Source: Amycolatopsis acidiphila (GTDB lineage Bacteria > Actinomycetota > Actinomycetes > Mycobacteriales > Pseudonocardiaceae). From it: a stretch of DNA of 64,000 nt. A model generated the notes under the pieces. It saw only the letters and a program-made list of their open reading frames with translations, searched no databases and was not told where the DNA came from. Below are positions 25,724 to 34,700 of the stretch, one piece after another; positions within the stretch are counted from its first letter, which is position 1; each line of letters begins with the position of its first letter. The position numbers were made by a program, and so were the translations under genes. Where the stretch lies: NCBI RefSeq assembly GCF_021391495.1, contig NZ_CP090063.1, positions 7,812,001 through 7,876,000 on the forward strand, read 5' to 3'.

Positions 25724-26665
25724 TCACGGCCCGCCGAAGACGGTGCCCGCGCTGGACCAGAACACGAAGACGATTACCAGCAGCAGGAGCGCGACGACCC
25801 ACCACACCGGCAGGTCGGGATCGATCGCGAAGAACCGCCTCGCCGGCTCGCCGCCTCGCAAGCCGCCTTCGACGACGTCCCTGCACAGCGGCCCGGCGAG
25901 GTCCGTCCGGAAGAACCGCCTGGCGAACTCTTCGCCGGTCCGCACGCCGCGCAGGAGGACGTCCGGCGGCCCGTGGGAGACGATCTTGCCGTTCCACAGG
26001 ACGGCGACCTCGTGTGCCACTTCCCGTGCGAAGTCCAGGTCGTTCGCCGTGATCAGTACCGTGGCCCGCGCCTTCTCGTTGACCGACTTGATCGCCCTGA
26101 CGATGGCACCCGTGTAGCGGGAATCGAGCGCGGTGTCGACGTCGTCGAGGACGATCAGCGGCATGCCGGACACCAACGCCTGCGCGAGGAGCACCCTGCG
26201 CCTCGCGTGCGCGGGGATCTCCTCGGGGAAGGAACGCGCGAAGGCCTCCAGGCCGAATTCCCGCATCAACGGCGCGGTGGTCGCGTGCACCTCATCGTCC
26301 GTCGCACCGGCACGACGCAGGACACAAGCGACGTTCTCGTAGACGTTCATCGAGGAGAACAGCCAGCTGTCGAACGGGTGTGAGCCGCCGACCACGGCCG
26401 CGATCCCGCCACGAGCACTGACGAGCTCGGCCGAGGTCAGCGACCAGACGTCACGTCCGTCCAGCCGGACGCTGCCGCCCGTCGGCGGCAGCAGGCCCAC
26501 GAGGTGCCGCAGGAGAGTCGTCTTGCCGCACCCCGACTGTCCGAGGATCACCGTGACCTGCCCGTCCGGCACCGACAGCCGAAGCCGGTGCAGCACCGGT
26601 TCGTCGCCGAGAACCGTCGTCACGCCGTCGAATTCGATCTTCAAGGCGCTGGGGGCACTCTCCAT
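25724..26665 (-). CDS. Degenerate ABC ATPase with C-terminal membrane anchor, 313 aa
   Basis: ATG after GGAGGAGGTGAGCGC. Walker A is normal (GQSGCGKTT). The signature region, expected as LSGGQ or VSGGM, reads IPAHARRRVLLAQAL, and Walker B reads LIVLDDVDTALD with Asp where the catalytic Glu should be. After residue ~280 a hydrophobic segment WWVVALLLLVIVFVFW forms a transmembrane helix, unusual for this subunit type. It lies at the end of the R2lox operon, while a canonical Mce ATPase is at 48765-49598. It may be a regulatory or structural paralogue. ATP binding is likely, hydrolysis doubtful. Confidence 0.85.
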   Translation of the reverse strand: MESAPSALKIEFDGVTTVLGDEPVLHRLRLSVPDGQVTVILGQSGCGKTTLLRHLVGLLPPTGGSVRLDGRDVWSLTSAELVSARGGIAAVVGGSHPFDSWLFSSMNVYENVACVLRRAGATDDEVHATTAPLMREFGLEAFARSFPEEIPAHARRRVLLAQALVSGMPLIVLDDVDTALDSRYTGAIVRAIKSVNEKARATVLITANDLDFAREVAHEVAVLWNGKIVSHGPPDVLLRGVRTGEEFARRFFRTDLAGPLCRDVVEGGLRGGEPARRFFAIDPDLPVWWVVALLLLVIVFVFWSSAGTVFGGP

Positions 26666-26719
26666 GCGCTCACCTCCTCCTCACAGTCGGCTACACCGCG
26701 AACTTCACGGCGCGGAAGG

Positions 26720-28351
26720 TCATTCGAGGGTCTCCACCTTCAACCGGCCGTCCGCGTAGTCCCCGCGCAGCACCTTCTTGTCGAACTTCCCGACGCTGGT
26801 GCGCGGGATCTCCTCGACGAAGGTCCACCGCTCGGGCAGCCACCACCGAGGCAGCTTGTCCGACAACCAGGATCGGAGTTCCCCCGGCGAGACGATCGCT
26901 CCCTCACGAAGGACGACGGCCGCCAGCGGACGTTCCTGCCAACGCTCGTCCGGTGCTGCGATGACCGCCGCTTCGAACACGTCGGGGTGCCCCGCCAGGG
27001 CCGACTCGAGCTCGACCGACGAGATCCACTCGCCGCCGGACTTGATGACGTCCTTCATCCGGTCGGTCAGCGTCAGGAAGCCCTCGGCGCTGATGTGCCC
27101 GACGTCGCCCGTGCGCAGCCATCCGTCGTGGAAGCGCGCGTCATCGTCGACCTGGTAGTACGAGCCGGTCACCCACGGTCCCCGCACCTCCAGCTCGCCG
27201 ACGGCCTGCCCGTCCCGCGGCTGAGGCGTGCCGTCGTCGCCGACGATCCGCATCTCGACACCACAGACCGGGCGTCCCTGCGTCGCCCGCATCCGCCACG
27301 CATCGGCTGGGCCGGCGGTGACCGCCGGGCGAGCCACCGACGCCATCGGGGAGGTCTCGGTCATGCCCCACGCCTGCAGGATGGTGACGCCGAGCCGGTT
27401 CTCGAACGCCTCCATGAGAGAGCGCGGCACGGCGGACCCGCCGCAGACGACCAGCCTCAACGACGAGAAATCCAGACCGGCGTCCTTCTCCGTGTCCAGG
27501 AGCACGTCGTTCCAGATCGTCGGGACCGCGCCGGCCACGGTGGGCCGTTCCGTGTGGACCATCCTGGCCAGCGGGGCCGCCTGCATGAACCGGTCCGGCA
27601 TCAGCAGTTCCGCACCGGCCATCAAGGCCGCGTACGGCAGGCCCCACGCGTTGGCGTGGAACATCGGCACGATCGGCAAGATCCGGTCTTGCTCGGCGAT
27701 GCCCAGTCCGTTGCCCGTGCAGGCGGCCATCGAGTGCAGATACAGCGAACGGTGGCTGTACACCACACCCTTCGGGTCGCCCGTCGTGCCGCTGGTGTAG
27801 CACATCGCGGCCCCGGCGTCCTCGTCCGCGTCGGTCCACGTGAACTCCGGTGACTCCGCGCCGAGGACGTCTTCGTAGCGGAGCACCGCCTTGCCGCTGC
27901 CCTCCAGCGGTGTCAGGTCACCGTCGTCGCCGGTGACCAGCACGACCTCGACCGTATCGACCCCGGGCAGGACGCGGGCCAGCAGCGGCACGAGCGAAGA
28001 GTCGACGATGACGACCTTGTCCTCGGCGTGCCCGGCGATGAAGCGGATCTGCTCGGCGGACAACCGGATGTTGAGCGTGTGCAGCACCGCACCCATCGCA
28101 GGCACCGCGGCGTACGCCTCCAGGTGCTCCTGGTTGTTCCACTGGAACGTGGCCACCCGGTCGTCGCCGGCGATCCCGAGGCGGCGCAACGCGTTGGCGA
28201 GCTGACCGCACCGCCGACCCACCTGCTCGTAGGTCGACCGGCGGAACCCGTCGCCCGTCGCGGTGGTCACCTGCCGGTCACCGTGGACCTCCACGCCGTG
28301 CCGCAGGATCGACGCGACCGTGAGCGGTGTGCCCTGCATGGTGCTGCGCAT
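26720..28351 (-). CDS. fadD: Long/medium-chain acyl-CoA ligase (AMP-forming, FadD-like), 543 aa
   Basis: ATG at 28351 with GGAGG 7 bases upstream (a GTG precedes it). ANL-superfamily motifs: YTSGTTGDPKGV (P-loop, ~190), AWGMTETSPM, WLRTGDVGHI (hinge Asp) and the catalytic Lys in IPRTSVGKFDKKVL near the end. The closest named group is the medium/long-chain fatty-acid CoA ligases. Within the operon it would activate the acid made by the aldehyde dehydrogenase to acyl-CoA for beta-oxidation. Cytoplasmic. Confidence 0.93.
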   Translation of the reverse strand: MRSTMQGTPLTVASILRHGVEVHGDRQVTTATGDGFRRSTYEQVGRRCGQLANALRRLGIAGDDRVATFQWNNQEHLEAYAAVPAMGAVLHTLNIRLSAEQIRFIAGHAEDKVVIVDSSLVPLLARVLPGVDTVEVVLVTGDDGDLTPLEGSGKAVLRYEDVLGAESPEFTWTDADEDAGAAMCYTSGTTGDPKGVVYSHRSLYLHSMAACTGNGLGIAEQDRILPIVPMFHANAWGLPYAALMAGAELLMPDRFMQAAPLARMVHTERPTVAGAVPTIWNDVLLDTEKDAGLDFSSLRLVVCGGSAVPRSLMEAFENRLGVTILQAWGMTETSPMASVARPAVTAGPADAWRMRATQGRPVCGVEMRIVGDDGTPQPRDGQAVGELEVRGPWVTGSYYQVDDDARFHDGWLRTGDVGHISAEGFLTLTDRMKDVIKSGGEWISSVELESALAGHPDVFEAAVIAAPDERWQERPLAAVVLREGAIVSPGELRSWLSDKLPRWWLPERWTFVEEIPRTSVGKFDKKVLRGDYADGRLKVETLE

Positions 28352-33542: not shown

Positions 33543-33593
33543 GAAACTGTCCTCACATCACGAATTTGAGCCGTTGCGGGCGACCGAGGTGGG

Positions 33594-34700
33594 CTAGTAC
33601 CGGATGAGGCCGCGGATGTTCTTGCCGTTGCGCATGTCCTCGTAGCCCTGGTTGACGTCCTCCAGGGAGTACTCGGTGGTGATGAGCTCATCGAGCTTCA
33701 GCAGCCCGGCGTTGTAGAGCTCGAGCAGCCGCGGCACGTCGTGCTGGCCGTTGGACGAACCGAACAGGGAACCGCGGAGCTGCTTTTCGTACAGCGTCAG
33801 CTCGATGAGACTCGTCGTGATCGACGTTTCCTCGGGATGGCCGATGGCCGTGACGACGACCCGGCCGCGCTTCCCGACGAGCGAAAGGGCGGGCGTGATG
33901 TGTGCACCCTCGGCGACGTCCGTGGTGATCACGCACACGTCGGCCAGCTGGCCGCGGGTGAGCTCGCTGACGGTGTTCCACGCCTCGTCCATCGACGCGG
34001 CCGTGTGGGTGGCCCCGAACTCGAGAGCCTTGGTGCGCTTGAACTCGACGGGGTCGATCGCGACGATGAGCCGGGCGCCGGCGATCCGGGCACCCTGGAT
34101 CGCGTTGACGCCGATCCCGCCGACGCCGACGACGACCACAGCGTCACCGGCCCGCACTTCGCCGGATCGGACCGCGCTGCCGAAGCCGGTCGTCACGCCG
34201 CAACCGACGAGCGCGGCCTTGTCCAGCGGAATGCCGTCGTCGATCTTCACGACCGACGCCGCCGGCACGACGGTGTATTCGGAGAAAGTGCCGAGCAGGC
34301 ACATCTGGCCGACGTCTTCGCCGCGGGCGTGGAAGCGGTAGGTGTTGTCCAGCTGCGGGCCGAGCATCACGGCGGCGCCGGCGTCACAGAGGTTGCCCAG
34401 ACCCCGCGCGCAATACGAGCACCGGCCGCAGGCAGGCAGGAAGGTCATGACCACGTGGTCGCCCTCGGCGATGTCCATGACGCCAGGGCCGGCGGCCTCG
34501 ACCACACCGGCGCCTTCGTGGCCGCCGACCAGGGGGTAGGGGAAGGGCAGGTCTCCGGTGACGAGATGCTCGTCGGAGTGGCACAGCCCGCTGGCGGTCA
34601 GCTTGACCAAGACCTCGCCGGCCTTCGGTGGATCCAGGTCTATTTCCTCGACCTGCCACTTTTCGTGCTGTCCCCAAAGGACCGCAGCCTTCGTCTTCAT
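33594..34700 (-). CDS. NDMA-dependent-type zinc alcohol dehydrogenase, 368 aa
   Basis: ATG at 34700 with GAGGAG 9 bases upstream; an upstream TTG at 34709 is less likely. Catalytic zinc ligands in GLCHSDEHLVTG and GGHEGAGVVE, structural zinc ligands in CGRCSYCARGLGNLC, and the Rossmann motif VVGVGGIGVNAIQGA. It resembles the mycobacterial AdhB/NDMA-ADH group, which keeps its nicotinamide cofactor tightly bound and uses another electron carrier. First gene of the R2lox operon; would oxidise the alcohol formed by R2lox. Confidence 0.9.
   Translation of the reverse strand: MKTKAAVLWGQHEKWQVEEIDLDPPKAGEVLVKLTASGLCHSDEHLVTGDLPFPYPLVGGHEGAGVVEAAGPGVMDIAEGDHVVMTFLPACGRCSYCARGLGNLCDAGAAVMLGPQLDNTYRFHARGEDVGQMCLLGTFSEYTVVPAASVVKIDDGIPLDKAALVGCGVTTGFGSAVRSGEVRAGDAVVVVGVGGIGVNAIQGARIAGARLIVAIDPVEFKRTKALEFGATHTAASMDEAWNTVSELTRGQLADVCVITTDVAEGAHITPALSLVGKRGRVVVTAIGHPEETSITTSLIELTLYEKQLRGSLFGSSNGQHDVPRLLELYNAGLLKLDELITTEYSLEDVNQGYEDMRNGKNIRGLIRY

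Follow-up and report, generated by a model that had tools for sequence, protein, structure and literature searches.

Gene context suggests a P450-like oxygenase role for an actinobacterial R2lox encoded beside an Mce operon

Introduction

What does R2lox, the R2-like ligand-binding oxidase, do in the cell? The question is raised by a stretch of the Amycolatopsis acidiphila genome, 64,000 nucleotides long (C1:7812001-7876000 of a genome of 8.18 Mb in a single contig) and hereafter called the window, in which an R2lox gene lies in an operon of oxidation-type genes that adjoins an Mce operon. R2lox has long been a subject of structural work, and its physiological role has been called unknown (PMC4118035, PMC6399176). 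The reaction that has been characterised is the one-time formation of a Tyr-Val cross-link, a long-chain fatty acid occupies the tunnel of the characterised protein (PMC6399176), and a desaturase role was once proposed (PMC4118035). In 2024, alkane loss was reported for a distant R2lox, GkR2loxI, on modest evidence from crude lysates, with a difference of merely 11-21 percentage points for a double ligand mutant, and R2lox was already proposed as an alkane hydroxylase from its context of alcohol dehydrogenase (ADH), aldehyde dehydrogenase (ALDH) and CoA-ligase genes (PMC10867098).

An earlier reading of the window from its letters alone (the sequence-only reading) also called the reaction unknown, which the GkR2loxI report has made partly outdated, and predicted oxidation of an imported hydrophobic substrate. 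Following up this prediction, we find that gene context suggests, and makes a testable case for, R2lox as an oxygenase in a P450-like role.

Results

The R2lox operon consists of nine co-oriented genes on the minus strand that run from 34709 to 25724 with intergenic gaps of 34-62 bp (calculated from the coordinates), in the order NDMA-dependent ADH, R2lox, thioredoxin reductase (TrxR)-type ferredoxin-NADP reductase (FNR), 7Fe ferredoxin FdxA, extracytoplasmic function (ECF) sigma factor, ALDH, SCP2 protein, acyl-CoA ligase and ABC ATPase (Table 1). The sequence-only reading had described such a one-directional run with short gaps, and the products that it named are borne out by Pfam and NCBIfam profile models, with matches judged against the model cut-offs; two of them are refined, the ADH being of the NDMA-dependent family and the 'FAD reductase' a TrxR-type FNR.

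The R2lox protein aligns over most of its length with 7qbp (428 bits) and 3ee4 (419 bits), which we take to be the R2lox proteins of Saccharopolyspora erythraea and Mycobacterium tuberculosis, respectively. All six metal ligands (E77, E110, H113, E176, E211, H214) and the cross-link pair (V80, Y171) are present, as the sequence-only reading had stated; the mapping uses M. tuberculosis residue numbers. Ligand residue numbers for the Geobacillus protein are given in PMC10867098. In an alignment of 88 R2lox sequences (87 loci and the window, near-duplicates included), all eight residues are intact in 87, and the tunnel alanine that replaces phenylalanine and sets R2lox apart from the R2 protein of ribonucleotide reductase (RNR; A171 in PMC6399176), here A180, is kept in 88 of 88. 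Against Pfam at E<=0.001, the sole match of the window protein is PF00268, the RNR small chain, with none to the di-iron hydroxylases of the soluble methane monooxygenase (sMMO) type.

The exception among the 88 is the fourth R2lox of the same genome (L095 9271-10365, approximately C1:5549770-5550864), a copy with 54% identity in which the changes E77G, V80A and Y171H remove one metal ligand and the whole cross-link pair; it still adjoins a kinase, a regulator and an Mce operon. Similar copies, 52-53% identical, also occur in genomes G334, G314 and G385. In all, a search at E<=1e-20 gave 2,404 R2lox homologues.

A midpoint-rooted tree of 84 rows, with L095 and L092 on long branches, separates clade A (41 rows, including the window) from clade B (43 rows) with an SH-aLRT support of 98. 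Clade B comprises core copies from Amycolatopsis, Prauserella and related genera, one further copy from the window genome and one from a mycobacterial plasmid. Eight positions consistently distinguish 40 clade-A from 43 clade-B rows, and among these, S79 and Q82 adjoin the cross-link valine.

The partners of R2lox were counted within 12 kb, with proteins of the window and of relatives as queries and with 45% identity required for the ligase and 55% for the ALDH, at the best 80 of 88 loci from named genomes together with annotated plasmids and paralogues from the window genome. These rows include near-duplicates (L005/L006 and L009/L010/L011) and are dominated by Pseudonocardia, and so are not independent. 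At the 43 clade-A loci, we found the kinase-like gene in 39 cases, the ADH in 35, the regulator in 33, an Mce-operon gene in 32 (33 if the distance limit is dropped), SCP2 in 29, and FNR and FdxA in 15 each. The less conserved parts of the module are the ALDH (10), the ligase (9) and the ECF sigma factor (6). Among the 44 clade-B loci, an ADH, an SCP2 and a ligase each occur once, all on plasmid pMyong1, and the other partners do not occur. When only loci with more than 9 kb available on each side are considered, Mce genes accompany R2lox at 25 of 29 loci in clade A and at 0 of 39 in clade B. The sequence-only reading had named a lack of conservation in relatives as a refutation of its prediction; the neighbourhood is conserved, in several re-orderings, and is carried together with the Mce operon. 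Near most clade-B R2lox genes lies an unrelated AMP ligase (approximately 30% identical, mostly on the opposite strand), so that a separate pathway may exist in clade B.

R2lox, FNR and FdxA stay together in three gene orders: R2lox-FNR-FdxA in the window, L008, L009, L013, L089, L093 and others, R2lox-FdxA-FNR in L012 and L014, and FNR-FdxA-R2lox in L018, L090 and L091. The FNR start was set at the ATG at 32496 because the 570-codon open reading frame (ORF) overlaps R2lox out of frame. The scores of this protein against 3lzw and 6gas (Table 1) compare with 92 bits for 5uwy, the best ordinary thioredoxin reductase; on these scores, assignment as an ordinary thioredoxin reductase was rejected, although the top PDB row, 2zbw (290 bits), was deposited under the name 'thioredoxin reductase'. 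The cysteine spacing of the ferredoxin, read from the translation, is that of the 7Fe type, on the pattern that we assume for such proteins. A second R2lox-FNR-FdxA set in the same genome (L093 9249-13573, approximately C1:5234248-5238572) is followed by a 744-aa ORF in which a fatty-acid-desaturase domain is fused to a PaaE-like reductase; an Mce operon belonging to this set and a kinase are also nearby.

The Mce operon of the window reads from 51386 to 37197 and has the gene content of an importer of this type: a YrbE pair, six MCE proteins and an ATPase. Its ending with an MMPL-like protein and a PpiC-type isomerase (37197-40903) recurs in relatives. Because a minus-strand kinase gene and a plus-strand regulator gene intervene, the operon appears to be a neighbouring transcription unit, separate from that of R2lox. 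The relative position of the two operons varies: in the window type, the Mce operon lies upstream with its MMPL/PpiC end towards R2lox, in Pseudonocardia it lies downstream with the ATPase gene first, on Rhodococcus plasmids it lies downstream with YrbE first, and at L093 and L095 it is divergent, past the kinase/regulator pair. On the R. opacus plasmid pROB01, the genes ADH-R2lox-FNR-FdxA-ALDH-SCP2-ligase-YrbE-YrbE-MCE follow one another in one direction. In a comparison of 24 YrbEA proteins, the 18 R2lox-linked ones are scattered among unlinked Mce copies of the window genome, and a single R2lox-linked clade is rejected (approximately unbiased test, p=4.5e-7), with at least four changes of linkage in a tree that includes long branches. 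This scatter points to a link that has apparently been re-formed, or kept through rearrangement. In the window genome, the distance to a YrbE pair is 2.9, 3.5 and 16.1 kb for three of the four R2lox genes and 590 kb for the clade-B copy; under uniform placement, the chance of at least three of four lying this near is 1.9e-4, with a distance limit that was chosen post hoc.

In Pseudonocardia dioxanivorans, R2lox is separated from the Mce ATPase gene by an MPAB/Lcp gene (rubber-oxygenase domain; L032 10953-11924). As a fixed partner this oxygenase was rejected: at loci such as L026, L027 and L038, the MlaF gene starts 1.1-1.2 kb downstream of the R2lox start, too close for it to fit. ECF sigma factors like that of the window (38-51% identical) recur near window-type Mce genes without R2lox (L118 11136-11747, L130, L135), which may mean that this sigma factor goes with Mce and not with R2lox.

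Both operons appear to have moved in one transferred block. Positions 25558-52304 form a single 26.7-kb blastn match to Amycolatopsis sp. 2-2 at 96.1% identity that ends just beyond the ABC gene on one side and the first YrbE gene on the other; apart from short matches of 917 and 176 bp located elsewhere, the compared flanks do not align, and the clade-B R2lox region of the same two genomes is 85% identical in one comparison. A. echigonensis has two versions of the block, on 11.5-kb contigs, with 97.4% and 94.6% DNA identity. The left flank in the window (15058-25524) carries two IS110-type transposases, one Mutator-type transposase and two tyrosine-recombinase genes.

In Amycolatopsis sp. 2-2, the operon end is followed, 0.64 kb past the ABC gene, by mftA (ending in IDGMCGVY) and then by mftB (assigned from position only), mftC (656 bits), mftE (291 bits) and mftD (698 bits). 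This second mycofactocin cluster, directly after the R2lox operon (L116, approximately 4250-9977), gives that genome two mftC genes. The equivalent site in the window is occupied by the Mutator-type transposase (24241-25524), and a search of the window for the mftA end motif, the one mft gene sought there, found no mycofactocin remnant. The window genome has a single mftC (657 bits), 1.8 Mb away, with an mftA motif alongside (L096). All 26 clade-A genomes tested (out of 38 loci) have mftC, compared with 203 of 397 genomes of the order and 19 of 46 genomes of the family whose R2lox proteins are all below 65% identity; some of the 26 have no ADH adjoining R2lox, and the comparison is confounded by kinship. 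This distribution agrees with a mycofactocin-dependent ADH.

Modules of similar make-up carry a P450 instead of R2lox. Among 150 family genomes, 11 contain close relatives of the window ADH (E<=1e-165), at 12 places in total; nine of these adjoin R2lox (four of them, L119-L122, being close kin), one, in the window genome, is beside a P450 (L118), and one is near P450s, SCP2 and a BtrH-like gene (L123). The order at L118 is LuxR-type regulator, Reductase_C-type reductase, P450 (on the opposite strand), NDMA-dependent ADH, ECF sigma factor, YrbE, YrbE, ATPase and MCE, with YrbE and ATPase proteins 70-73% like those of the window. This P450 is nearest P450terp (495 bits) and p450tol (487 bits), compared with 204 bits for CYP124 and 179 bits for the CYP153 alkane hydroxylase; we presume CYP108 to be the family name. 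Another locus of the same genome, L130, parallels the window closely, reading MCE, MMPL, PpiC, ADH, P450, reductase and ALDH, then an ECF sigma factor (51%), with the P450 after the ADH where R2lox would be and without the kinase/regulator pair. P450terp-like proteins occur at 11 places in 397 genomes, and around the ten that were examined, an MDR-type ADH is near all ten (approximately 6 kb), a reductase near nine, an ALDH near eight and an Mce gene near five (approximately 10 kb). No P450 is present among the scanned genes of 25724-51386. The P450 counterparts, together with a chain of the primary-alcohol type, suggest by analogy that a methyl group is hydroxylated, on a terpenoid, an alkyl-aromatic or an alkane.

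A BtrH-type gene beside an NDMA-dependent ADH and SCP2 was seen on a mycobacterial plasmid with R2lox (L092 11953-18163) and, with the P450s, at L123 7143-12086.

Several gene assignments of the window call for comment. The ADH has an alternative ATG start at 34700, and an upstream ATG would lengthen the kinase ORF to 36541, into the regulator gene. The ECF sigma factor is nearest the BldN family (TIGR02952), yet under its cut-off (134 vs 206 bits). None of the listed NCBIfam equivalogs matches the ALDH above cut-off, hence its substrate cannot be read from this gene, and the SCP2 sequence has no match among PDB sequences. The ABC ATPase gene at 25724 recurs at L006 only (among the best 80 of 88 R2lox loci, several contigs of which end earlier); its assignment as the Mce ATPase is not supported, given this single occurrence and an Mce operon with an ATPase of its own.

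Table 1. Genes of the R2lox and Mce operons and of the segment between them, with the block shared with a relative
Feature	Position in window	Strand	Evidence
NDMA-dependent (mycofactocin-linked family) alcohol dehydrogenase	33594..34709	-	TIGR03989 591 bits, cut-off 440
R2lox, R2-like ligand-binding oxidase	32559..33542	-	NF006199 552 bits, cut-off 286
TrxR-type ferredoxin-NADP reductase	31474..32496	-	287 bits 3lzw, 281 bits 6gas
7Fe-type ferredoxin FdxA (FdxA_Actino)	31116..31439	-	NF045480 134 bits, cut-off 125
ECF sigma factor	30429..31055	-	PF04542, PF04545
Aldehyde dehydrogenase	28871..30370	-	PF00171 605 bits
SCP2 sterol-carrier-like protein	28404..28811	-	PF02036 25.2 bits, cut-off 21.3
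Acyl-CoA ligase	26720..28354	-	PF00501; NF004837 subfamily 673 bits, cut-off 476
ABC ATPase, hydrophobic C-terminal stretch	25724..26665	-	PF00005; translation
Sensor histidine kinase	34892..36209	-	PF02518
LuxR-type response regulator	36305..36997	+	PF00072, PF00196
PpiC-type isomerase and MMPL-like protein, Mce operon end	37197..40903	-	PF13145, PF00639, PF03176
Six MCE (MlaD-domain) proteins	40900..48761	-	PF02470 in 6/6
MlaF-like ATPase and two YrbE/MlaE permeases	48765..51386	-	PF00005; PF02405 twice
26.7-kb block common to Amycolatopsis sp. 2-2, spanning both operons	25558..52304	.	blastn, 96.1%

Discussion

Taken together, these observations translate into a model in which R2lox is probably the oxygenase of a three-component hydroxylase, made up with NAD(P)H, FNR and 7Fe ferredoxin, that sits in a mobile, Mce-coupled catabolic module and feeds a mycofactocin-dependent ADH. 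Under this model, the block would be a catabolic module that moves horizontally, and its Mce/MlaFE-type transporter would import a hydrophobic compound. NAD(P)H would supply electrons by way of the TrxR-type FNR and then the 7Fe ferredoxin; receiving them at its dimetal site, R2lox would hydroxylate a methyl or alkyl C-H bond to an alcohol. The mycofactocin-dependent ADH, the ALDH and the acyl-CoA ligase would take the product to acyl-CoA, with SCP2 as the putative carrier of hydrophobic intermediates and with the kinase/regulator pair and the ECF sigma factor as candidate controls. R2lox would thus fill the role that a class-I P450 system has in sister modules of the same genome. The pathway that the sequence-only reading predicted, from import through hydroxylation, alcohol, aldehyde and acid to acyl-CoA, is well supported by gene context because the neighbourhood is conserved, re-ordered and carried with Mce as one block; the part that fared less well is the completeness of the set, given the low counts of ALDH, ligase and sigma factor across clade A.

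Several observations weigh against this interpretation. No Mce gene was found at 10 of the 43 clade-A loci (L005, L008, L016, L017, L019-L021, L029, L035, L037) and no ADH at 8 (L016, L017, L019-L021, L037, L093, L095), several of these being short contigs, and most clade-A R2lox genes of Pseudonocardia have no adjoining FNR, FdxA, ALDH or ligase. Clade-B R2lox genes, including the intact-ligand copy of the window genome, are without the counted partners except on pMyong1, and therefore the module does not account for R2lox as a whole. One close relative of the ADH (L128) keeps SCP2, regulator and kinase; R2lox and Mce are both absent from the 19 kb available there. Finally, the P450 at L118 is divergent from its ADH, and the ADHs at the other P450 loci are merely 29-33% like that of the window, so that the P450 analogy is functional rather than strictly positional.

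A first alternative concerns the substrate. The report on GkR2loxI, with its ADH, ALDH and ligase genes (PMC10867098), and the fatty acid in the tunnel of the characterised protein (PMC6399176), whose alanine is universal in our alignment, favour hydroxylation of n-alkanes or fatty acids by the R2lox of the window as well, in which case the hint of a terpenoid or alkyl-aromatic would be misleading. The sister-module P450, far closer to P450terp and P450tol than to CYP153, points the other way, and we consider this alternative unlikely, albeit one to be taken seriously.

A different possibility is lipid remodelling: instead of serving growth on a substrate, the module would hydroxylate or desaturate an endogenous or host-derived lipid for the envelope or for signalling, and Mce would move the product. 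Mce and SCP2 handle lipids in general, and the R2lox of L093 adjoins the desaturase/reductase fusion. A desaturase role has been proposed before (PMC4118035). Nevertheless, the ADH, ALDH and CoA ligase of the window form a degradation-like series, the P450 sister modules share ADH and ALDH, and the block is mobile and accessory, all of which make remodelling quite improbable. We give similarly low credence to an R2lox without turnover, that is, a single-turnover cross-linked protein, a sensor or a redox-state chaperone accompanied by genes that oxidise an alcohol made elsewhere. This would fit the one-time cross-linking reaction (PMC6399176) and the L095 protein, which remains beside its Mce operon and kinase/regulator pair after losing a ligand and the cross-link pair, but it accords poorly with dedicated FNR and FdxA partners, which occur in three gene orders, with the near-universal retention of the eight residues and with counterpart modules that carry a P450 and a reductase. 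That the R2lox and Mce operons are unrelated passengers on one genomic island, as the flanking insertion sequence and recombinase genes, the two block versions in A. echigonensis and the separate transcription units might be taken to indicate, is very improbable given that R2lox is linked repeatedly to Mce operons, which belong to several clades and stand in several arrangements.

The hydroxylase model leads to a more specific proposition, which we regard as evenly poised between right and wrong: clade-A R2lox would serve as catalytic subunit in a new Mn/Fe monooxygenase, one that has three components, is driven by ferredoxin and replaces a P450 in Mce-coupled, mycofactocin-dependent degradation modules, and these would move between actinobacteria with the importer and sometimes with the cofactor biosynthesis genes. 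If this is true, the small group of catalysts able to hydroxylate unactivated C-H bonds gains a dimetal (probably Mn/Fe) enzyme, and there is a shared substrate to seek for mycofactocin dehydrogenases and Mce importers. The module offers handles for tests: candidate redox partners, a downstream ADH whose cofactor is identified, an importer, regulators and sister modules with a P450 that indicate the type of reaction.

The pathway idea is not new because the Geobacillus paper proposed an alkane hydroxylase from a context of ADH, ALDH and ligase genes (PMC10867098). The module is new: in the available parts of PMC10867098, PMC6399176 and PMC4118035, and in a limited search of the open literature, we found no redox partners, mycofactocin or Mce link, shared transfer or P450 counterparts. 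Like the window, the GkR2loxI and GkR2loxII clusters of Geobacillus kaustophilus HTA426 combine R2lox with ADH, ALDH and CoA-ligase genes and share the proposal of a hydrocarbon hydroxylase (PMC10867098). Unlike the window, they have no Mce genes in either the available description or the pHTA426 annotation, no ferredoxin or FNR gene is annotated in the 14.5 kb of pHTA426 shown, and the Geobacillus ADH is iron-containing whereas that of the window is of the NDMA type. GkR2loxII aligns only partially with the window protein (54% of the query, 29% identity). The M. tuberculosis (3ee4) and S. erythraea (7qbp) proteins belong to the same family and have all the ligand and cross-link residues; the tree of 84 rows places the window protein outside the clade of the Amycolatopsis core and pMyong1 copies.

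As in the window, actinobacterial Mce lipid importers have a YrbE pair, six MCE proteins and an MlaF-like ATPase; the window operon differs in its MMPL-like and PpiC-type ending and in the adjoining oxygenase operon. Di-iron monooxygenases of the sMMO type pair an O2-activating dimetal protein with a separate electron chain, and the R2lox module is probably alike in this respect. The differences lie in the protein itself, as R2lox matches only the RNR small-chain family in Pfam, and in the predicted donors, a TrxR-type FNR and a 7Fe ferredoxin; sMMO-type systems usually have a different reductase. In operons of the P450terp type (P450terp, p450tol), an oxygenase, a separate reductase, an ADH and an ALDH are clustered as in the window, and in this bacterial family such operons sometimes lie beside Mce, again as in the window. 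Where these operons have a haem P450 and a Reductase_C-type reductase, the window has R2lox, a TrxR-type FNR and a 7Fe ferredoxin.

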